NCBI GenBank assembly: GCA_009869945.1
Contig: WIXG01000433.1
Coordinates: 1-56,729, forward strand
Length of the DNA: 56,729 nucleotides
Direction: 5' to 3'
DNA from: Mesaphorura yosii
Taxonomy: Eukaryota; Arthropoda; Collembola; Poduromorpha; Tullbergiidae
The notes beneath the pieces are model-generated. The model did no database searches. It was not told the DNA's origin and was given only the letters and a program-made list of their open reading frames with translations. A program made the translations under genes and the position numbers. Below are positions 6,071 to 56,729 of this stretch, in pieces. The first letter of the stretch is position 1, and each line of letters opens with the position of its first letter.

Positions 6071-9000
6071 ATGGAGGCATTTTTCCAGGCGTGTGGAGAG
6101 GACATCGTGTCGCGGCTCATTGAGCCCAATTTGAGTGTCCGGCTGTATACCCGAGGCGTGTTGACTTCCCTGGAGCTGGAGGAAGTGTCCAACATGGAGA
6201 CGACCATCCATCGGAGGCGACTGCTTAACATCCTCATGACAAAGTCGGTAACCCCCTCTCACTTGCAGCCTGCAGGCTACAAACGCCTTTGCCTCTTCTA
6301 ACCCTATTTGTCTACGTGTTCTGCAGGAGCCTGGCAGCCATCAGGGCCTTTGTAGATATCGTCCGGGATGCTACTACAGGACAGGAGGATCTGGTCGAGA
6401 AACTGGAGGCGGAAATTCAAAAGTGGGTGGTTAGCGCCAAGAGGTGTGGGGTGAACCTCGACGGGCACCACCTGCAGGGGGCCAAGATAGCCAAGCAGCA
6501 GCAAGAGAGCCGTGCTGCCGGTGTGGGCGTCTGGCTTGGGGTGAACGAAGTGGTGCACAACTTTACTGGACGGGAGGAGGAGCTGGGGACATTGCACAGG
6601 CTCGTGACCGACAACCATGACGAGGGGACTTACTCGGTCCTTACGAGCGTCCATGGTCTCGGGGGCATTGGAAAGACGTCCTTGGCCCGTAAATACGCCT
6701 GGCGCCAACGCGCCTTTTACGAGAACAACGTCGTCTGGATCGATTGTGAACGTGGTGAGTTGATACGAGAGGCTTTCATCCGTGTGGCCAGGCGGCTTCA
6801 ACTCCAGGTCGTTGGGGAGGACGAGGAAGGGGATCGCGAACTCTGCACCGCCGTCTACGAATGGTTCGACCAAAATACAACTGCCTGCCTCTTTATTTTC
6901 GACAATGTCGAAGACTTCAGTGGCCCCGATGGAGTCAGGGCCTGGCTGCCCGTAAATTTGGCGCCTCACATCCGTCGCCCCCACCTGCTCCTCACGAGCC
7001 GACGTTCGGACCTTGTCAGGCACGGGAAGGTGCTCCGGTTGGACGTACTCAGCTGGGAAGACGCAGTCGAGCTGGTTCGTAAATCACTTCCGGATACGAG
7101 CACGGACTCTGTGGAGACCTTCGTTCGTAAGCTTGGCCGCCTCCCCCTGGCGCTCCAGCAGGCGTTGGCCTACCTGGACGAAGTGAAGGACACGATGTCT
7201 GGAGACCAGGACAATGTCCTGCACGCCTATATGGAACTATACGAGCAGCGGGCCCAGGAGTTGCTGAGCGACACCAAATTCATGGAGCACTTCCTGTCAG
7301 ATTCTGAGTATAAAAAGTCAGTGTACCTCACCTGGCGGGTCACACTTGACAAGATCGAGACGTTGGAGTTTGGGGCGCTTGCGATTCGAACACTGCAACA
7401 GCTCGCCTTCTTCAACTCCGACAGCATTCAGCTGGACTACTTTTCTAGGCTGGGGTCCGCGCGGGCCGTGGATCTCTTGCAGTTTCTGAAGCCAGATATG
7501 CAGCAGTTGCTCGGGGTGTCGTGGTCGGTGGCAGTCGGAATCCTAAGCAAGTTTTCGATGGTCAACTGCGTGCACGGGGTCGTGTCAATGCATCGTCTCG
7601 TCCAGGAAGTCGTTCGACTTGACATTGGAGCAGAGGACGAAGTGGAGCTCGTGGGGAACGTGGTCCGGTTGACGACAGCCCACTTGCCCCGGACCGAGTT
7701 TGGGGAGCAGACCTTGTTGCACGCAACTAGCGTCTTGCCCTTCTACTTTCGGAACAAGGCCGTGATGGAGGAGTTTCCTGAATTTGGGTCGCAAGTCTCT
7801 GAGCACAGTCAACTCATTCGCCACTCGGTGTCACAGTTGCCGCGCGAGACGGAGGCCAACTGCGTGCGGCTGCTAGATGTAATGAACATGGACTCGGGTT
7901 GTGTACAGATGGCGGTGGCCTACGTCAGAAGGGCAGCGGCCGCGAACAGAACAAAGAGTTGTCGGCTCGATGTGTACATTAAAGGGGCCGTGGTTTGCAA
8001 GGAGCTGCGATTGAGACACTTGACGTACCCCGCGGTTGACGACGAAGTTCGGACAATGCTTGGCTGCTGGACTGACAGCTTTCTGGCTCACCTTCAAAGC
8101 CTGGAAGACCCCGAGTTTCTCCTGGAACTGTGCTGCATTCTGTGCCATCTCAGCCCCGAACACATCACAGCCGATTGGGTTTCCAACGCCCTCGGCGTGA
8201 CGGAGGTCTCCTTGGTGAGTAGGAGCAAGGAGGAGGACTGGCGCATGGATCTCGTCGCCCACATGAGCCTACAACAACTTCCGGCCTCTGTCACTCCGGT
8301 ATCAGTCCAGCGGAGCCTCCAGCGCCTGGTTCGACATGTGGAACAGGGTTTGGCCATGTCGGACGGCCGTGAGCTTGAGTGCGCGACGCATGGCTTCTTC
8401 TTGTCCTCGCACATTTTCAATGGTGGTAGTGGGCACAGGGCGGTCGACTTTGAGTGTGAGGCTTCATTCATTGTCAACGTTCACTGGCACCTCCTGAGCC
8501 TCCGCCGAAGTCCAGACGCCTTTCATCTGTCGGCGGAAGCGAGAAGAAGCACCAAATTCCAGATGTCAGGCGATTGTGGGGAGTTGATGGTCTGTAGGGA
8601 GTCTGTTTACAAGGCTCTGTTTGGTCGACACGAAGAAACCAATGACGGGGGTTCGACTCGGGTCTGGGAGCAGGGTCTGGCTGCGTGTGAACGACTCATT
8701 GACCTGCACAACTCCACGGCCCCTGGCGGATGTGCCCAGGAGAGCAAGGAGCTAGTCCATGCGTTGCGGCACAAGAGCCTGCTCCTGGAGAAGCTAGGTC
8801 AAATGGAAGAGAGCAAGGCACTCTTCACTGAGAGCTTTAACATGGGAACCAGGATACGGGCGCGTGGCGATGGAACCAAGGGAAATGCGCCACTTGCTCA
8901 CGCGACACCCCATTTTCTACCCGAGACGATCATAAATGCACTTGACTCCGTCTTTCCCAGATCGGAAGACATGAGATTCCCGCCTCGGTTCAATGTCAGC

Positions 9001-9087
9001 AACATTAATTTCACGGTGACCAGCGGGCAGGGCCAAGATCCAGCGGACCAAAGCGAGTCAACTCTTCCTGACTCAGGAGTCCGGTGA
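6071..9087 (+). CDS. CARD-NB-ARC-TPR protein (Apaf-1/NLR-like)
   Basis: Predicted STAND-type signalling ATPase of the kind that builds apoptosome or inflammasome-like platforms. Exon 1 (6071-6243) and exon 2 (6327-9087) give 977 aa. Residues 1-90 look like a CARD: the pattern RGVLTSLELEEVSNMETT then RRRLLNILMTKSLAAIRAF and GQEDLVEKLE. The NB-ARC follows: FTGREEELGTL, P-loop GLGGIGKTS (about residue 167), Walker B-like ACLFIFDNV (about 246), HLLLTSRRSDL, GRLPLALQQALAYL (about 327) and an MHD-like MHRLVQEV (about 478, D replaced by R). Near residues 850-900 a TPR-like helix pair is visible (HKSLLLEKLGQMEESKALF). There are no WD40 repeats, unlike Apaf-1. The best-fitting donor at 6244 (GTCGGT) is non-consensus; the stronger GTAACC at 6248 would shift frame. 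The stop at 9087 falls in a possible donor (CCG|GTGACA), so more 3' exons are possible. Confidence 0.8.
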
Positions 9088-12475: not shown

Positions 12476-14486
12476 ATGTCTGGGGTTGGGCAACCACTGC
12501 CACCTCATCCCTTGAACTCGGGTGCTAACCTAACCCCCAATGGAAACCCCCCACGCCGTCGTGGTCGGGCCAGAAAGGGACCCAAATACTCGGTAAGTGC
12601 ACTCCACTGTTCTCCTCACAAAACTAAGGCCAACCCCTCAATTTGGTTGCAGGCGTTCGGGGGCATCGCGCCGTTTACTGACGGTGCGACTCCACCGTCT
12701 CCTCTCATTCTCCTCCCTACCTACGCAGATTGCCCTTGCCCCCCGAATTGGACTCAATCCCTGGAGCAAGCCAGGTTGCTGGTAACGAGCCCCTTCATGA
12801 AAATCCCCGTCGCTGAAGAGTCAGCGGAGTGGTTGGCCCTCCTTCGTTACTTTCAGTCGGACTCCACCGCCGCCACCATCACGCACGTGGAGCGAGTTGT
12901 GAATCCCGAACTCTGGCGGCGTTTTACACGAACACGCACCGAACTCCTCATATCGAAATCTGATGACTTCAACCTGTTGGCCGAGCTGGGACTGAGTGAG
13001 AAAGAAGTCGCTGAACGCGCACACGTGAGCATGAACTTTGACCGAAGCCGCCTGCAAGGGAGTCCGTACGCTGACAATATGGTGCTCCTCTTCCATGGGT
13101 CGAAAGGTCGTGACGCCGTGGACACGATCCTGAGTCAAGGGTTGGACGACCGACTGGGCAACACGTGGGGGTTGTTGGGGCGTGGCATTTACTTCACTGA
13201 CGACTCCGCCAAAGCGATGCAATACGACAAGAATGGAATGCTCATCGTCTGTGCTGTGATACTTGGGGATTGCTTGGCTGGAGGTGAAGGCGGAGCCGTG
13301 AGGGAGCCAGAGAAACAGCCGGGGCAGAAGAGAAATCCGCAGGACCTGTTTTTCGACTCTGTCGTTGGGCGTCCCGGCCCGCACAATGAGTACGTGATTT
13401 ACAACCGGAGTCAGTGCTGCCCCCTCTACACCATCTCATACACTCGGAACTCTGCCATGTCGGACCAAAGCGTTCACATTCAACTGGATTACCTGAGGGC
13501 TCAGGCTCAGCTGCCTTCGTTCGCCTGGACCAAAGCCATCAGCCTTTCTACGGATGAGCAGTTGGGGCAAGTGCTCTACCCCTTCCATGCCCGCACCATC
13601 TTTCAAGTTATGCACGCACCACATCAACTCCAACCCTTCCAAGGGGACGAAGGCTCCACAGCTGCTCCACTTGCGCCTTCCCCATCATCTAATTCTTCTC
13701 CATCCAACATCGAAACGTATAATTTCTTGTTCGACGACATCGTTGACTTCACGCAGGAACGGAAGAAACCCGACACCCCTGCAGCCTCCACCGTCCCAAC
13801 TCCAGGATATGAGTGGCTCGATTCCCTACTGATGGAGTTAGGTGGCTCTCCACCGCCAGCTGCTCTCGAGGAGTGCCCCATCTGCTTCTCGGAGTATACA
13901 CCAAGTGGCTCTGATTGGGAGGTAGGTCACCTGACACTCACAAACCCCCTCCTCGTGCACTTCCAACCTAATTTCAACATTCCTCATTCCCTCCTAGGTT
14001 TTGGACTGCACGCACAAAATCTGCACCTCCTGCACTGCTCAGATGCGGGGCACTGGCTCGACGATGTCCGGTCAAGTCCACACGTGGCTGAAGTGTCCAT
14101 TCTGTCAGTCCTGTTCGGGGGTACAAGTCGGTGATTGTCCAGATGGCACCATGAAGGTTCGGAACTTGTCAAGGCCTGCAGCTGGGTACGAGGGTTGGGG
14201 CTCCATCTCTATCCGTTACTTGGTTCAGAATGGTGTGCACTTCCTGAATCGGACTGCCTACCTCCCAGCCACCCCCGAGGGATTTCGTATTCTGAACTTA
14301 TTGAAGACGGCGTGGGATCGACGTCTTTGTTTCAGGATCGGGACGAGTCTGACGACTGGAGCCACGAACGTCCTCGTCTGGAACCTCCACCACAAGAGTG
14401 CGTTGCGTGGAGGGTTGTATGGGTACCCTGACCCCGGCTATCTGCTGCGTGTGGGACAGGAGCTTGCACAGTATGGAATCAGATGA
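12476..14486 (+). CDS. PARP catalytic domain fused to RING and Deltex C-terminal (DTC) domains
   Basis: Exons 12476-12592, 12653-13921 and 13998-14486 (introns 60 and 76 bp, both phase 0) give 624 aa. Order: basic Pro/Arg-rich N-terminus; PARP ADP-ribosyltransferase fold with the H-Y-E triad intact (LLFHGS, His about 187; GRGIYFTD, Tyr about 219; NEYVIYN, Glu about 285); a Ser/Pro-rich linker; a RING finger (CPIC at about 447, CTHKICTSC, CPFC at about 495); then a Deltex C-terminal domain (DGTMKV, GYEG, RTAYLPATPEGFRILNLLK, DRRLCFRIGTSLTTG, HHKSALRGG, YGYPDPGYL). Deltex RING-DTC modules ubiquitinate targets and can attach ubiquitin to ADP-ribose; in vertebrates DTX3L works in trans with PARP9. 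Here both activities sit in one chain, so the product could ADP-ribosylate a target and then ubiquitinate the modified site. Intron 1 is 3n long and stop-free. Confidence 0.9.
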
Positions 14487-15039: not shown

Positions 15040-17201
15040 TTAGTCAGAAAAGTAGGCTAATGTACGATCCAACTTTTTCTTCTTCCAATGGAATTCAACC
15101 ACTAATACAGACAATGAGGAGCACAATCCAATTCCCAGTATGAAAAACATGAGCCAAACATCTACCAAGGCTAGTCCCGAATCCACCTCCGATTCACCCT
15201 CTCCTTCAAGCTCACCGCACTTGGAACTCGAATCCTTGATTGAGCACTCACAATTCGGCTTACTATCCCTCTCTTTCCTCAACACAGTCCCTCTCACCCG
15301 GCCCACCACGCCCGTCTGCGCCATGTGAAGTCTTGCATAGTTGAGGTGGTCAGTCAGCTCAGAGCCAAGTCTCAAGAAGCTGGAAGCCCAACGCTTCACA
15401 CCGGACAGAGTAATCCGGCGGAGCCGGTCACAATTTGGGCTAGCAGACGCGTGCCTTATTTGTGCGATCGAGTGTGTGACGTACGCAAAACGTGGAGTGT
15501 CCACAGCGTACTTCATTCCAGCCTCACCCGAATCAAATGTACGATAGTTTGTGCGCATGGGCCAAACAGGGCTCCACACGCCCAGCGCTTCCCCTGTCAA
15601 CACATTATCCACGACTCCATCTTTCTCCGTGCCAAACGTGTAGCCACGAGCGGCTAAATCTTGCAAGTTTTCTATTTCGCCCTGCGTCGAAAATTTGACG
15701 AGGAGGAATCCTGACAAGATTGTATAAAACAGGATACAGCTCAAAGCAACTGAGAGCGTGTACAGTCTGCTCCCGACTTCATGTTTTGTAGGAGGTAGAT
15801 CAATGCCCTGCACTGTGACGAGTGCAGTTGTCCAGATAAACAACTCGGATGATTCCAGCGGCTGAAAAAAGACTCTGCTCAGTGCAAGCAAGATAACCAC
15901 AGAAGCCAGCAACGCGAGCAGAGCACTTCTATCGAAGACTCCACCGAACACATTGCCCGACACCTGCGCATGCATGTCACCATTCGAGAATGGGTCCAAA
16001 TAGTTCACATATATTTCATTGTGCACTCTTGTCACGAAGGGAAAACTGAAATATGGATTCTTGTAGAGAGTCATACTGGACAAGGCAAGATCTGCATCAC
16101 CCTTTACCACGAGTTCTCCCATGCTTCGACCATCTGACGAATTCGGGTGAGAGGCCCAACTTGACGCGTTCACGAAGGTAGATTTGAACTGAAGCAGATC
16201 TTGGGTATAGGCAAACATTTCGTAGCTGAGGGTATCATAACCAGGACTGAGAGAAGAGTCTGTGGCAGGCCTGAATGCAGCCAGGGTTTCCTGCCCAGAG
16301 CTTGTACGAATTTCAGGTTGGAGTACGTGCGCGACTTTGATGTCAGTCCCAGCCAGCTGTCTCGATCGCAGTAGCAATCGACCGTTCAGTGTCGTCACAC
16401 TGGACACGTAACGACCAATAGGCGCCCTTAGTAATAAGGGTTTGACAACGAGCCGTCCCTTTACCCCGTATAGTTCGTACGTGGTTGACAAGAAGCCATC
16501 GATGTAATAAACTTGATCTGATAGTCTAAGCGTCAGTTTGTTGCTCGAGTCGATGGCGGCTCGAAGGATCTGATCTGATTCTCCACCGACAGATGAAATC
16601 AAGAACCAGACTGTCGAGCGTCGCGGAAATTCGTTCAAGCACTACATAGGATGAAAATAATAAATGGACAGAGAGCACATACCATACCTGGAAAGTGCCA
16701 GAATGTATAGACTGAATTTACCGCTGTCAGTACTGCTAGTGTGGTATTGAACTGCTCAGAGAGCAAGGCAATGACCAGCGTCTCATGCGGAGGCAGAGTG
16801 GCACACCTCTTCTTCCAAGCATGCTGCACAAGTTTTTCGTCTTCTGCGTAGTCCAGGCCGGGCTGGTCCGATGATTCATTGCATTTCGTACCGACCGCGA
16901 CTAGTGGACAGGCACCTCCTGCTGCTCCTGTTTCTAGGTCGAGATGGCCTGTACTACTCAAAAGTGCGACTTGCTCAGTCACACCGACGAGGCTCCTTGT
17001 CGCGGAGGTCTGTAGTTTGTGTTCTATGTATGTGTAGAAAATGATTTGAGGGTTGACGAAACGTTCCGCAATGTTGGCGAAAAGGTGTTTGACTATTTTG
17101 GAATCCATAGCCGCCTCCTTCTTGCAGCAGCAGATGTTTTCTGATATGCTGAAGATGAGGACGATCAGCATGAGCAAGAGAAAGGCCACACGCCCCGACA
17201 T
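15040..17201 (-). CDS. Divergent ionotropic receptor (IR-2), two exons
   Basis: Exons 16683-17201 and 15040-16641 are separated by a 41-bp intron (donor GTATGT, acceptor TATGTAG, phase 0) and give 706 aa. The ATG at 17201 begins a clear signal peptide (MSGRVAFLLLMLIVLIFS). An N-terminal extracellular region with several Cys is followed by the channel block: helix SALLALLASVVILLALSRVF, pore-region Trp segment, helix LSVALSCILFYTILSGFLLV, the second binding lobe (EIENLQDLAARGYTFG) and a last helix (WLMFFILGIGLCSSLSVLV). This is the IR order. Ligand-contact residues are divergent. An upstream ATG at 17300 exists but precedes a less convincing leader. The intron is among the shortest in the window. 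Confidence 0.78.
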
Positions 17202-18633
17202 TTCAGTACTTCCCTCTGTCTGCGTTGCGAGTTGCACAAAATCGACATGGCAAATAAACTGCTCGAGAGATATTCTGACACAATTTTTCATGTAGATCAC
17301 TCAAAATTGGTAATTATATTGGTACTCAAGTCGTGTCACATAAAATCATTCCGATTGTGCGACCTGTCATTTAACAGCAAAAAAGTCCTCTCGTACTCAT
17401 ACTCGCCACAAATTTGAGTGTGTGAAAGACGTCACTTTTGAATGAAAAGAGCTATCAAATCTTTCGCATTTAGTTGTCGTAGGAAATAATTTTTGAGTGA
17501 GGTTTCGCAGTTATTGATTTCGTTGACGAAAACCTGTCTCCTTCTAGAGGTGCACTCACAATTGTCCACCATAATACAATCCATCTGAGACAATTCTGAC
17601 ACATCTTAGCAACGTGGAGAGGTGCACTACAGAGGCTCGGGAGAGCCCTACCGCTCACTCTCCAAACAGATCCAGGAACCAGGCGGCCGTATCAGGAAGT
17701 CAGCCTAAATACAGACTAAAGCCGAATATTCGAACACGTCCTCATAATTCTTCTTGCCAACGACAAAATAAAACCGAACCCCGATTCGTGCAGCAAAACA
17801 AGAATGCATGTTGGGCGTCCAGATTGTGTGCTTTTGTTTTCAGTCATCTTGTGTCATTCAATGTATCTCAATGTGTCAAACGTAGAATGAAAGGTTGAAG
17901 TACAAAACGAAAATGCAGGGCGGGCATTTGCAAAAATAGGAAACGAGACAGCGGTTGCAAGATTTTATGATAAAAGTATTGCTAATAACGAGTTACGTTT
18001 AAAATGTTATTTTTATACAACTGTTGCCGAAGCACTTGACATTTACGTTGGCTACGGCTTTACAGATTAAGGCCTAATATTGTAAAGAACTGATTTGCTT
18101 GTCCGTTTCATCATATCTTAATTGCTCTGTAGATTGTTAATTATGCCTACTTGCGGAAGCCACAAAGTGATTTAGAGTGATCGTCCAGATTCTGACCATG
18201 GAGACGATAAAGGAATAGAAATAGAAATTAAATAGATGTCCAACAGCACAAGAGTATTAATGGCAACATCTTGAAAGTATTTAGGTTAGTATAGTTGGAT
18301 AAAAAAGTAAAAACAGGATAAAAAAAATGAGGCAATCATGCAAAAATAGCGGTTTAGCAGAAGATTACAACCAACGATCCCATTAGAAATAGACAAGGAT
18401 GTTTTCTGGGACCACAAACTGTGGTTACAAAGAGCTACTATTATTATCCTGATGCTTCGAACACGACTTCTAGAGCAAGCCATTACATTTCATAGACTTC
18501 CATGACTTATGCGACGAACGTCTTTGAAATTGGCATAAATATGTGAGCTGAGCCACTTCATAAAGCCAGACTTAGACTTCTTTCTCTGATTTAGACTCGC
18601 AACATTGAATTCGGAGGAAGGCCAACTCCAAAA
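17202..18633. other. Intergenic, AT-rich
   Basis: Divergent upstream region of IR-2 and the repeat-protein gene. No open frame with a family signature and no RNA gene recognised. Confidence 0.4.
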
Positions 18634-37546: not shown

Positions 37547-39150
37547 TCAAAGAGCTCCAGAATAATGAACCGGCCCCCAAACTCCCCCAACAGCCTCCCC
37601 ACCCACCATCCTTCCCGTGTAGCTCCTCCCTAATAAACTCGCCCCCCTCGACAGCTGCCTGTTGCGCTTCAAACTGGTCCAAGCATCGTAAGCTGAAGTG
37701 TAGATTGGAGTGTGGGGAGGGTTTCCGATTGCCAAGCGCGTCCCATTCACAATCAGGTTATTAGAGACGAGGTGCAGCTGGTAGGTGAGCGTGGAGGCGG
37801 TGTACTGTCGGAGGAGGAGAAAAGAATTAGAAACGCATGGCAACGGGGGTTGATGATTGGGGGACTTTGAAAAAAAAATCCTTGTCTGACATTTTTAACA
37901 TTGGAGATTCCTTTGATTTAGGCTGTTTGGCTAAGTTTTTCTCGGAACTTTGAAATGTTTTCTGGGTTCTGAGAACTTTTTATGATCACCCTGTTTGGCT
38001 ACAATCACTGGAGGGAGCTTGAGTTTTGGGGGTGGCGTCGTGAACGAATCGAACCCCCACCACTTCCCCGCGTATAACGGGGGGGATTAGTGTCCGCCGC
38101 TCGACTCGTTCACGACACCCCCCATATATCCTCTTACCCCTCCGACAAACCCCGCCAGGTAGTGCGGCATCTGCTCCTTCTTGAACCCCCTCTTTAAGAA
38201 GTGCACAATCACAGAAGCGATGCACACGTACAGAGCCTCCGCCAGGAGCCTCGGACCAAGCCCTGTAAACAACCCACGGAGCCCGTCTTCCTCTAGAATT
38301 CTGGAGAGGGTCGAGAGGGGGGAGCTGCAGGGTTGACAAAAGAGTGAGGGTTGATTAGAGAAGGCCCCAGACCATATTAATTTCAAGACACTCACCAGTA
38401 CTCTTGCATCAGCTCCCTCCCCACAAAAGCCCCCATCATCCTCACCGTCATAACATGGAGAGGGTGGGAGAGACTAACAGCAGCCGAGGCTGAAAGCACC
38501 TCCCAGCAGGTCTGTTTGATTAAATACTCGTTCGGAGTGGAGGCCAGGAAAAAAGGGTAGAGTGGGGTCTTCTTCACCGGAGGCCGTGCTGGCTCTTCAT
38601 CTTCATCTTGGTACCCCTTCACAATGGGTGAGAGCTCGATCAGGTTGGCTGAGACGAGGTAGTGCACTCCATTCCCAAGAAGCCTCGGTCCAAGCCCTCG
38701 GTAGAGCCCCGGGAGGCCGTCTACTGACTTTAAGTATTTCACTGTGGGATAAAGATAAAGAGATTTGAGATTATTTGGGAGCCCCATGACAACCGCGCCC
38801 TTTATAAATAACTTAAGTTTACCCACTCACCGTACTGGAACGCGTTCGGGTATTGGAGTGCCGAGAAGAACCGCCCTCTCGTGGGGGGAAACGGTTCGTA
38901 GCCGAGCTGTGGTTAAAGAGAGGGTGAGTTTAGTCAATTTCCAGTTTCCAAAACAGGTTTAAGAAGCAGGGTTTTAGGGGTTACTAAGGAACAGTTCCAG
39001 TTGGGCAGCAAATTCAAATAGATATGGACTCACCTGAATCAAGACTTTGGCGTACTCGAGAGGATGATTAACGAGCTGAGAGATTGACCTGAAGAGGAGC
39101 GTGTTCAGTTTCTGGTCAAAGGGGGAGAGTGCTGGAGGAGGGGTGGCCAT
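37547..39150 (-). CDS. MTCH2: Mitochondrial carrier homologue (MTCH2-like), five exons
   Basis: Exons 39034-39150, 38831-38906, 38396-38741, 38138-38324 and 37547-37804 give 327 aa. MTCH proteins are divergent SLC25 members in the outer mitochondrial membrane; MTCH2 inserts tail-anchored proteins and binds tBID. Diagnostic pieces: N-terminal SQLVNHPLEYAKVLIQ then LGYEPFPPTRGR; carrier-like GLPGLYRGLGPRLL and GLRGLFTGLGPRLL; AAVSLSHPLHVMTVRMMGAF; and the C-terminal TYQLHLVSNNLIVNG, TPIYTSAYDAWTSL, RQLSRGASLLGR that match the family's last segment. Slightly longer than the usual about 300 aa because of a charged insert (GYQDEDEEPARPPVKK). CHD1 lies 400 bp upstream on the same strand. Intron 4 holds an introner-like repeat. 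Confidence 0.92.
37805..38137 (-). repeat. Introner-like repeat with terminal inverted repeats in MTCH2 intron 4
   Basis: With the gene, the intron opens GTAAGAGGATATATGGGGGG then TGTCGTGAACGAGTCGAGCG; about 60 bp later its inverse appears, TTCGATTCGTTCACGACGCC. The outer halves pair over about 18 bp. The core CAAATCAAAGGAATCTCCAA (plus-strand 37903-37927) is shared with the vnd and CHD1 introns. Confidence 0.75.
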
Positions 39151-39549: not shown

Positions 39550-48576
<9,027 letters not shown>

Positions 48577-53481: not shown

Positions 53482-54533
53482 ATGGACCCTCCAACCAGCA
53501 CCATCCTCGAAGACGGAGGGACAAATCAACAACCTTCCTCCGTTTCCAAGGGCCCACAAACATCCGCACCCTCAGAAACAGCCAACACGGATGAGCTGAC
53601 GATGAGGCAGGTGGAGGCGATTGATGAGGAGGTGGGTTACCTTTACTACTGAATATTAAGGGGGATCTAACAAGTTCTCCACCCCGCAGATCTCCTCCTC
53701 AACCCCCCTCGTCTCCCCCGTCGAGGCTATCAATGGACTTGAGAAGGAGTACAGGGAGGACCCTGTGTACAAAGAAAAGGTGAGTCCGTCACCGGATCGA
53801 GAGCAGTCTCAATTAAAAGCGACAAGTAAATCAATTTCTAAATCTGCAGATCTCCTCCCTCTCCACCCATTACCCCTTTATAAGGAGAATGCGGCCGGAC
53901 GGGAACTGCTTCTACAGGGCTTTTAGTTTTGGAGTACTCGAATCACTGATAGGAAACCAAGAAAAGGCCGACCAGTTCCATTCCTCCGTTGTTAAATCAA
54001 AAGAGCTATTGAACTCGACTGGGTTCAACCAGTTTACAGTGGATGACTTTTACGATACCTTTTTAGAGTTGTTAGAGAGAGTTAGAAAGGGGATAACACT
54101 GCAAGAGTTGGAGGAGGCCTTCCGTGAACCCAGCTTGGCTGATTACTTGGTGGTCTATTTGAGGATAGTAACGAGTGCTGAGCTCCGCCGAAATTCAGAC
54201 TTCTACCAAAACTTCATTGAATCTAAATCAGTGGAGGAGTTCTGTCAACTCGAAGTGGAACCAATGTACAAGGAGTCTGATCATATCCACATTATTGGAT
54301 TGAGTAAGGTGCTGGGGGTTGGGGTGCGGGTTGTTTATGTTGACAGGGGTGAGTCCTTTATCTCTCTGGTGTGCAGTTACCAAGGTGGAGTGACTGAAAT
54401 TTGTAATCTTGCAGGCCCCTCCACCTCCCACAACTTTCCGGAGGATGACTCTGAGCCGGTGATCGTACTATTGTATAGGCCAGGGCACTACGACATCATA
54501 TACGAGGCGAAAGTGGATGGTGGAAAGGAGTGA
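53482..54533 (+). CDS. OTUB1: Ubiquitin thioesterase otubain (OTUB1-like), four exons
   Basis: Deubiquitinase of the OTU family, preferring Lys48 chains and able to block E2 enzymes. Exons 53482-53631, 53690-53779, 53850-54348 and 54415-54533 give 285 aa. Catalytic block RPDGNCFYRAFSFG (Asp about 97, Cys about 100), then DHIHIIGLSKVLGVGVRVVY and the catalytic His in YRPGHYDIIY (about 271). The N-terminal approximately 45 residues are polar and disordered, as in OTUB1. The last intron (66 bp, 3n) has no in-frame stop, so retention would insert 22 residues just before the final strand. AATAAA at 54633-54638. OTUB1 rather than OTUB2 by the long N-terminus and sequence pattern. Confidence 0.94.
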
Positions 54534-54736: not shown

Positions 54737-56729
54737 TCAATACCCCAGCAATACCTGCGCACACCTCCTCAACAGCTCCCTGTTCTTTGGTTTACCCGGT
54801 GCAGTTGTCGCCTCGTTGGGCGCCAGAACACACGGTGGGGCCTTACTCTCTTCTACACATTTCTGCTCCATTTCAACGAAAATTTCTCCATCCTTACACC
54901 TACTAACCCGAATTTGGAAAGCGTACCCGTCCCACTTGCAACTGTAGTACTTGCTACAGTCACGGGGGTGGGGGCGGAGGCGGCCAGAATTTGGGCCTCC
55001 CCTGCATGTTAACTGGAACTCGTCGTCCGGTTCGGGTTCTGGGGCCGGGGGTTCCGTTGTTGTTGTGGTTGTTGTAGTGGGACGGGTGGTGGTTGTCGTT
55101 GGGCGAGTTGTCGTCGTCGTCGGTCTCGTCGTAGTTGTCGTGGTCGGAGTCGTCGTTGTAGTTGGCCGAGTCGTAGTCGTTGTAGTCGTGGTGGTCGTGG
55201 GCTTCATCGTCGTAGTAGTTGTAGTACTCGTAGTAGTAGTCGTCAAAGGAGTCGTGCTCACAGTGGTCGTCCCGTCCTCCGTTACGTAGCTGGGGCACAT
55301 CGTAGTACTCACAATAGGTGTTGGGGTCGTCTGAGGGGTTTGTTCTGTTCCCGTGCCACATCTACCTTTAACATTGTAAGGGTGATTGCATGTTAACACT
55401 TCCTGGTCCCATACCGTCCCCGGCCCGCAGTCGTAGTGGAATACAGTGTACTCTCTCGAGCCAAAGTCGACGCACCGGTAGAATTTAGTGCAGATGGTTG
55501 GGTGCGGGTAGAAGCCGGGTCCGGAGGAGCAGCTGACCGTTGATTGCTGGCTGGAAGATTGGCTTGAGGACTGGCTCGACTGCTGCGAGGAGGACTGACT
55601 CGAGCTAGAAGATGACTGGCTGGAGGAGCCTCCCGAAGACTGCTGACTGGAGGAGGACTGACTGGACTGCCCGGAGGAAGACTGTTGACTGGATGAGGAC
55701 TGGCTGGAGGAGCCTCCCGAAGACTGACCCGAACCCGATTGCTGAGAGCTTGACTGCTGGGAGGAACCCTGCTGCCCGGAAGACGACTGGCTCGAGCCGC
55801 CCTGCTGTTGGCTGCTGGATTGCTGCGAGGAGCCCTGCTGCTGTCCAGAGGAGCTGGACCCCTGCCCAGAGGAGCCCTGCTGCGAGGAACCGCCCTGCTG
55901 CTGCGAGCTGCTGGAGGAGCCCTGCCCCGATCCACCCTGCTGCTGAGAGCTGCTGGAGGAGCCTTGCCCCGAGCCTCCTTGCGAACCCTGCCCGCCGGAA
56001 CCACCCGATCCTCCCTGCTGCTGCTGAGAGCCCGATTGACCGGAAGAGCCCTGCTGAGAGCCGCCTCCGGATCCCTGCTGTTGAGAGCCACCTCCTTGTG
56101 ATCCACCCGAGCCCTGCCCACCGGAGCCACTGCCAAGCTGACCCCCACTTCCCTGTTGCTGCGAGGAGCCAGTTGATTGCGAGCCCTGCTGTTGCCCTCC
56201 ACTGGCTTGGGACCCGCCGGACCCTCCTTGTCCACTGCTCTGTCCACTTTGCGAGGAGCCCTGTCCAGCCCCGCCTTGGCCCGACGCGCCCTGCTGCGAG
56301 GATCCACCCTGCTGCTGCTGGCCACCTCCCTGCGAACCTTGACCTGAGCCGCCTTGCTGCCCCGAGCCACTTCCTAGTGAGCCCTGCTGCTGTCCACCGC
56401 CGCCCTGGCCAGAACCGGAGCCACTTGATTGTGACCCGCTTCCGCCCTGCCCGGAGCCCCCGACTCCCTGCTGCTGACCACTTCCCTGGCCACCGGAGCC
56501 CTGCTGCCCCGAGGAGCCACCACCCGACTGACCTGAGCCGCCCTGGCTGGACCCACCTCCGCCCTGATGTTGGCCACCTTGCGAGCCCCCGGAGCCAGTT
56601 GATTGGGAACCTCCGCCTTGCTGCTGACCACCTCCTCCTTGCGATCCACCGCTTCCTTGTCCCAGCCCTGAGCCTCCGCCTTGCTGCTGACCACCTCCTC
56701 CTTGCGATCCACCGCTTCCTTGTCCCAGC
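54737..56729 (-). CDS. Silk/mucin-like protein with two chitin-binding (peritrophin-A) domains, 5' end outside window
   Basis: 663 codons of a single open frame enter from the right edge. From about 56729 to 55560 it is almost only Gly, Ser and Gln (GGSQGGGGQQQGG-type, shifting to SSQQSSS), like silk or glue proteins. Then a peritrophin-A domain with six Cys (SCSSGPGFYPHPTICTKFYR ... YDCGPGTVWDQEVLTC ... RC), a mucin-like Thr linker (TTTTTRPTTTTT) and a second six-Cys domain (LTCRGGPNSGRLRPHPRDCS ... CKDGEIFVEMEQKC ... PPC). Secreted, chitin-attached matrix of gut lining or cuticle is likely. Polyadenylation signal 54577-54582. No intron in the visible part. Long frames on both strands here are repeat artefacts. 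Confidence 0.9.
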   Translation of the reverse strand, partial: LGQGSGGSQGGGGQQQGGGSGLGQGSGGSQGGGGQQQGGGSQSTGSGGSQGGQHQGGGGSSQGGSGQSGGGSSGQQGSGGQGSGQQQGVGGSGQGGSGSQSSGSGSGQGGGGQQQGSLGSGSGQQGGSGQGSQGGGQQQQGGSSQQGASGQGGAGQGSSQSGQSSGQGGSGGSQASGGQQQGSQSTGSSQQQGSGGQLGSGSGGQGSGGSQGGGSQQQGSGGGSQQGSSGQSGSQQQQGGSGGSGGQGSQGGSGQGSSSSSQQQGGSGQGSSSSSQQQGGSSQQGSSGQGSSSSGQQQGSSQQSSSQQQGGSSQSSSGQQGSSQQSSSQQSGSGQSSGGSSSQSSSSQQSSSGQSSQSSSSQQSSGGSSSQSSSSSSQSSSQQSSQSSSQSSSQQSTVSCSSGPGFYPHPTICTKFYRCVDFGSREYTVFHYDCGPGTVWDQEVLTCNHPYNVKGRCGTGTEQTPQTTPTPIVSTTMCPSYVTEDGTTTVSTTPLTTTTTSTTTTTTMKPTTTTTTTTTTRPTTTTTPTTTTTTRPTTTTTRPTTTTTRPTTTTTTTTEPPAPEPEPDDEFQLTCRGGPNSGRLRPHPRDCSKYYSCKWDGYAFQIRVSRCKDGEIFVEMEQKCVEESKAPPCVLAPNEATTAPGKPKNRELLRRCAQVLLGY
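55055..55265 (-). repeat. Thr/Arg-Pro coding microsatellite
   Basis: Degenerate ACN repeats encode about 70 residues of T with RPT units every six residues; codons vary among ACT/ACC/ACG/ACA, so the repeat is kept at protein level. Confidence 0.8.
56610..56729 (-). repeat. Two near-identical 60-bp units at window end
   Basis: 56611-56669 and 56671-56729 are almost identical and encode GGGLGQGSGGSQGGGGQQQG-type 20-residue units, the youngest part of the Gly/Ser/Gln region. The array probably continues beyond the window. Confidence 0.85.

Follow-up and report, generated by a model that had tools for sequence, protein, structure and literature searches.

Introduction

Hybrid marks of ADP-ribose and ubiquitin are a young topic, and PARP and Deltex proteins have been studied as separate partners, PARP9 and PARP14 with DTX3L and PARP7 with DTX2 (PMC12687431; papers cited by PMC number are drawn on through parts of their text). 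The catalytic pair of DTX2 for ubiquitylation of ADP-ribose consists of H582 and E608 (PMC7615817), with H707 and E733 as the counterpart in DTX3L (PMC10810221). The linchpin residue of the RING is a Lys in DTX1, DTX2 and DTX4 and a Gln in DTX3L (PMC7615817). DTX1, DTX2 and DTX4 carry WWE domains (PMC12687431), and the catalytic triad of PARP9 reads Q-Y-T (PMC7955679).

The nearest single-chain precedent that we met in the literature, within the parts of the papers available, is the U-box-macro-PARP DDB0232928 of Dictyostelium, in which a PARP and an E3-type module also share one chain (PMC2964712). This protein differs from the one described below in coming from an amoeba, in having a macrodomain, and in using a U-box, so that an ADP-ribose-directed ligase module is missing. 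The word Deltex does not occur in the available parts of two surveys of PARP evolution (PMC2964712 and PMC4245714). Both report PARPs that carry further domains linked to ubiquitin, among them UBA in homologues of PARP6/8 from two protists (PMC4245714). Likewise, neither ‘fusion’ nor ‘single polypeptide’ occurs in the available part of a 2025 review on ADP-ribose and ubiquitin (PMC12687431). Among the matches listed in our literature search, as far as their texts were accessible, we recognised no PARP-RING-DTC protein; papers outside those matches could name one. We regard the novelty of a PARP-Deltex fusion as provisional; sequence databases may already contain such a protein that nobody has commented on.

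Here we analyse a gene in the 56,729-nucleotide stretch of springtail DNA (Mesaphorura yosii) that we refer to as the window. Its product has the domains that define the PARP and Deltex families, and does not have those that define WWE-type Deltex proteins or PARP9. It shares with vertebrate DTX3L, which acts with PARP9 or PARP14, a C-terminal RING-DTC module, the His and Glu of the DTC domain, a functional link to PARP, a Tyr at the position of DTX2 H594, and the Gln linchpin (PMC7615817). In contrast to DTX3L, for which the PARP is a separate protein, one chain here carries the module together with an H-Y-E PARP domain, and a loop of the DTC domain is shorter. The contrast with PARP9 lies in the macrodomains and the Q-Y-T triad of that protein (PMC7955679). 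In the window protein, Pfam searches at E up to 1 gave no match to a macrodomain, to a WWE domain or, with the general Pfam models, to N-terminal RRM/KH-like domains of the kind found in DTX3L. The RING-DTC module with its conserved His-Glu pair is also common to DTX1, DTX2, DTX4 and fly Deltex. Fly Deltex, too, carries WWE domains, and to our knowledge none of these four proteins has a PARP domain, unlike the window protein, which has a PARP domain and no WWE match.

Gene structure

The gene occupies positions 12476-14486 (+) of the window. Spliced in frame at GT/AG borders, its three exons encode 624 residues followed by a stop codon, and an in-frame stop lies 5' of the ATG, which bears out the phase-consistent three-exon gene proposed in a preliminary description of this DNA. 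Exon 1 (12476..12592, +; 39 codons) encodes the N-terminus with a basic stretch and is followed by a GT donor at 12593. Exon 2 (12653..13921, +; residues 40-462) covers the PARP domain and the linker and runs into the RING, the rest of which is encoded, with the DTC domain, by exon 3 (13998-14486, +). Intron 1 (12593-12652, +) is 60 nt long, a multiple of three, and free of stop codons, so the reading frame does not prove that it is spliced. Retention of intron 1 may occur, and would alter the N-terminus only, since the intron lies 5' of all three domains. Intron 2 (13922..13997, +; 76 nt, phase 0) lies within the RING and must be spliced for this domain to be completed. A second copy of the gene, on another contig, has an intron at the same position and in the same phase; given this shared RING intron, we rejected a retrocopy origin of the window copy.

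The locus could in principle consist of two genes, or of an assembly artefact, read as one. The gene model is derived from DNA, and the possible retention of intron 1 leaves some latitude for such a reading, but we consider it very improbable and largely refuted. Exon 2 on its own spans everything from the PARP domain through the linker to the second RING cysteine, which makes two genes unlikely, barring an unseen internal start, and on this ground we rejected the two-gene model. The second copy has, moreover, an identical domain order and an identical RING intron. The domain scores given below, together with the existence of a homologue built in the same way on another contig, exclude a chance arrangement. 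That PARP, RING and DTC domains are encoded together by one predicted gene model is thus confirmed.

The PARP domain

The PARP domain, read at first from its motifs, holds up in a profile search: residues 112-301 (12869..13438, +) match PF00644 with 54.7 bits, above the curated cut-off of 26.7 bits (E 1.2e-14). The motifs LLFHGS, GRGIYF and NEYV start at residues 184, 215 and 284, respectively, and the triad, assigned from alignment columns, is formed by H187 (13094-13096, +), Y219 (13190-13192, +) and E285 (13388-13390, +). The H-Y-E motifs are therefore intact and located where the preliminary description placed them. The three residues align with the H-Y-E residues of the tankyrase-like and PARP1/2/3-type proteins encoded by the same genome, and with those of tankyrase-2 in the PDB (phmmer). 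With both the catalytic domain and H-Y-E present, the protein groups by sequence with the PARP (ARTD) family.

The best match to the domain in the PDB is PARP12 (phmmer, E 2e-9), followed by tankyrase-2 (E 2.8e-8), and the tankyrase-like protein is the nearest of the three other PARPs from this genome that were compared. The third triad residue is a Glu as in tankyrase, unlike PARP12, which has an Ile at this position in the alignment of its PDB chain. Tankyrase and PARP12-type PARPs thus provide the nearest solved catalytic domains, but the window protein has no ankyrin, SAM, CCCH or WWE match in Pfam, and carries an E3 module on the same chain. The H-Y-E triad, as read from the alignment, permits PARP activity or chain making, without proving either.

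The RING and DTC domains

N-terminal of the RING lies an EWLDSLL motif (13811..13831, +; residues 426-432), which is identical in the second copy. The RING is of the C3HC4 type, and its zinc ligands are C447 and C450 in the first part (13874..13921, +), and C466, H468, C471, C474, C495 and C498 in the second part (13998..14105, +), where Q499 is the next residue. The full RING claimed earlier is borne out by the ligands, of which 8/8 are present; the six Pfam RING models that match within residues 446-500 do so with E-values from 2.5e-4 to 0.037, each scoring below its own cut-off. Directly following the last RING cysteine, both copies have a Gln and the DTX2 and DTX1 chains a Lys, the latter in line with the published statement on the linchpin (PMC7615817).

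The DTC domain (14130..14480, +; residues 507-623) matches PF18102 with 108.1 bits against a cut-off of 25 (E 5e-31), as expected of the full domain that had been claimed. Its C-terminal location (507-623 of 624), the RING directly before it and the His-Glu pair place the protein, by sequence, in the Deltex family. In an alignment to DTX2, DTX3L and DTX1 the pair is formed by H593 (14388-14390, +) and E617 (14460-14462, +), which correspond to H582 and E608 of DTX2 and to H707 and E733 of DTX3L; DTX2 numbers were obtained on the assumption that the 235-residue chain is the construct 390-622 plus two residues.

In the same alignment, the position of DTX2 S568 is occupied by Leu in the window protein and by Met in the second copy, and that of DTX2 H594 by Tyr in the window protein and in the DTX3L chain, and by His in the second copy. 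Both positions presumably line the ADP-ribose pocket. Solved DTX2 structures include 6y22, 6y2x and 6y3j, the last with bound ADP-ribose. One loop of the window DTC domain is shorter by 14 residues than in DTX2 and DTX1, and by 12 residues than in DTX3L. The Pfam match comprises 117 residues in both copies, spanning 132 model positions. Single-sequence AlphaFold2 predictions of the two parts of the window protein gave mean pLDDT values of 33.3 and 39.2, too low for a fold to be read from them.

A second copy of the fusion

The second PARP-RING-DTC locus is located on contig C328, with the DTC domain 1.4 kb past the PARP match. Its exons (L011 2613-5103, 5194-5483 and 5582-6070, +) encode 1089 residues from a start codon that we chose. 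In Pfam searches the PARP domain scored 49.7 bits and the DTC domain 125 bits. The predicted order is a long low-complexity N-terminus, the PARP domain, a UBA-like region, a stretch like a SUMO-interacting motif, the RING and the DTC domain. The UBA-like region has a Pfam score of 16.6 bits, below the cut-off, and matches the UBA domain of DSK2 in phmmer (E 2.3e-4). The stretch TIDLTDTDEEQE resembles the usual pattern of a SUMO-interacting motif, for which it is a candidate. The window copy has neither of these two elements.

The two copies are 67-70% identical in the domains (167/239 residues in the PARP region, 38/57 in the RING and 80/120 in the DTC domain), and 50/132 residues are identical in the linker. 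The linker of the second copy holds one extra intron; its N-terminal part is modelled as free of introns. By the Nei-Gojobori method, pS is 0.71-0.76, with synonymous change near saturation, and rough dN/dS values are ~0.12 for the PARP region, ~0.085 for the PARP core and ~0.067 for the DTC domain; for the RING plus DTC together, dS is saturated and dN/dS not computable. The high pS and the low dN/dS show that the duplication is old and that both copies are under constraint.

Around the second copy, 9.9 kb were inspected and three frames compared with Pfam, of which two are C-type lectins (L011 8075-8326, + and 8665-9177, -; 27.5 and 44.2 bits, respectively).

Deltex and PARP genes in the assembly

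We searched the draft assembly (93,006,257 bases in 1127 contigs) exon by exon. Only two DTC matches were found, those of the window gene and of the second copy. The RING-DTC protein used as a query gave three matches, which again correspond to only two loci, since the window gene accounts for two. The three WWE matches in the assembly belong to genes resembling RNF146 (WWE piece with a PDB match at E 2.6e-17, and a RING over the cut-off in a neighbouring frame), HUWE1 (UBA piece, PDB E 8.2e-8) and TRIP12 (PDB E 1e-42, with a match to the TRIP12 model as well). A WWE-type Deltex was thus not found in this 93-Mb draft, in which a split DTC domain or a gap could hide one. For the genome of the springtail Holacanthella, a Deltex orthologue is reported as not found, with the incomplete assembly as one of the stated reasons (PMC5644144). 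If a WWE-type Deltex is truly absent, the question arises what covers the Notch role of Deltex.

The assembly contains eight PARP matches and three macrodomain matches. Among the PARPs are a PARP1/2/3-type protein with WGR, PARP regulatory and catalytic domains (L001), a tankyrase-like protein with SAM and PARP domains (L002) and a PARP16-type protein with the ARTD15 N-terminal domain and a PARP domain (L006). By reading of the sequence, L007 appears PARP16-like, and L004 together with L008 appears PARP2/3-like.

Searches for prokaryotic and viral relatives, run with two short peptide patterns each, returned 42 viral and 52 genome-contig pattern matches, none of which was confirmed; this is a weak negative. 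Among plasmids, the single match obtained was weak and confined to the PARP part, with 27.8% identity across 29% of the query. The assembly also contains TTAGG repeats, with 40 overlapping matches of a 25-mer against 0 for the control; together with the ligand-gated channel matches given below and the appearance of the genes, they point to an arthropod.

Possible mechanism

Our preferred reading, to which we give somewhat better than even chances, is that the window protein is an ADP-ribosyltransferase and a Deltex-type E3 ubiquitin ligase in a single chain, which would write both modifications in cis. The PARP domain would use NAD+ to ADP-ribosylate the protein itself or a bound target, and the DTC domain would capture the ADP-ribose so made. 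The RING would bring in E2~ubiquitin, whose ubiquitin would end up either on the ADP-ribose, at its 3' hydroxyl and with the help of H593 and E617, or on a lysine close by. This would leave an ADP-ribose-ubiquitin mark made in cis, probably acting as a degron or a signalling scaffold, and the likeliest first reaction may be one in which the enzyme modifies itself and so adjusts its own abundance. A writer acting in cis had been put forward in the preliminary description; the H-Y-E triad, as opposed to Q-Y-T in PARP9, and the retained His-Glu pair of the DTC domain argue for it, as residues read by alignment. PARP, RING and DTC each retain their key residues, and the design is kept by an old, constrained second copy; against it stand the Leu and Tyr at the S568 and H594 sites, the shorter DTC loop and the sub-threshold RING.

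It is also conceivable, if rather unlikely, that the two halves are decoupled, with the PARP domain as a device for targeting or automodification, and the RING-DTC module as an ordinary lysine ligase recognising ADP-ribose that comes from other PARPs, for instance the tankyrase-like and PARP1/2/3-type proteins. Recruitment of PARylated substrates by Deltex RING-DTC modules, for ubiquitylation on lysine, has been put forward as a possibility (PMC7615817), other PARPs are encoded by the genome, and the poorly conserved linker between PARP domain and RING (50/132) does not force a tight coupling. However, the retention of both H-Y-E and the DTC His-Glu pair in two copies under strong constraint suggests that they are important jointly. 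A PARP domain that is dead, or that only binds NAD+, as a review describes for PARP9, would leave a protein that is simply a Deltex ligase. The domain is diverged from solved PARPs (best phmmer E 2e-9), its activity is judged from sequence, and the reaction originally attributed to PARP9 is reportedly not catalysed by PARP9 itself (PMC12687431). We nevertheless consider a loss of activity improbable, because the triad is intact, in contrast to the Q-Y-T of PARP9 (PMC7955679), and because dN/dS in the PARP core is as low as ~0.085, at a dS near saturation.

If the window protein is indeed a single-chain writer, two steps known from separate proteins may be done by one protein here. A natural fusion with an H-Y-E PARP would be independent evolutionary evidence that both steps belong together, and would offer a one-protein system for asking whether the hybrid mark arises sequentially on the same molecule. 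More tentatively, and with the odds somewhat against it, we speculate that Deltex exists in this springtail only in fusion with an active H-Y-E PARP, as a single protein that writes the hybrid mark and has taken the place of WWE-type Deltex. Of its two ancient copies, one would have gained a UBA-like reader of ubiquitin along with a motif like those that bind SUMO, resulting in one protein that both writes and reads ADP-ribose and ubiquitin.

Neighbouring genes

Of the 102 open reading frames of at least 110 codons in the window, 19 were compared with Pfam, and matches at the chosen thresholds were obtained for eight. These include a UDP-glycosyltransferase (356-1696), a NB-ARC/STAND ATPase protein in an intact frame of 952 codons (6229-9084, +), a mitochondrial-carrier match below the cut-off (38395-38826), and exons of a CHD1-like chromatin remodeller (39553-43991, with a chromo domain at 46569-47402; -). 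An otubain-type deubiquitinase (53817-54530, +; Peptidase_C65, 235.4 bits) lies ~39 kb from the PARP-Deltex gene. A role in antiviral or cell-death signalling, suggested earlier from the neighbours, is not supported by them: the NB-ARC frame is one of at least 52 such matches in the assembly (matches, not genes), and thus says little about the function of the PARP-Deltex gene. These 52 matches are seemingly many for an animal.

No tRNA was found in the window with ARAGORN, and no Rfam match reached the gathering score. Beside the PARP-Deltex gene, at 15043-17300 (-), long frames with no Pfam match resemble a divergent ionotropic-receptor gene. Ligand-gated channels have 64 matches in the assembly at E up to 1e-3, some of them below the cut-off. 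At 54740-56728 (-), a repetitive frame of 663 codons, rich in Gly, Gln and Ser, runs to the end of the contig.
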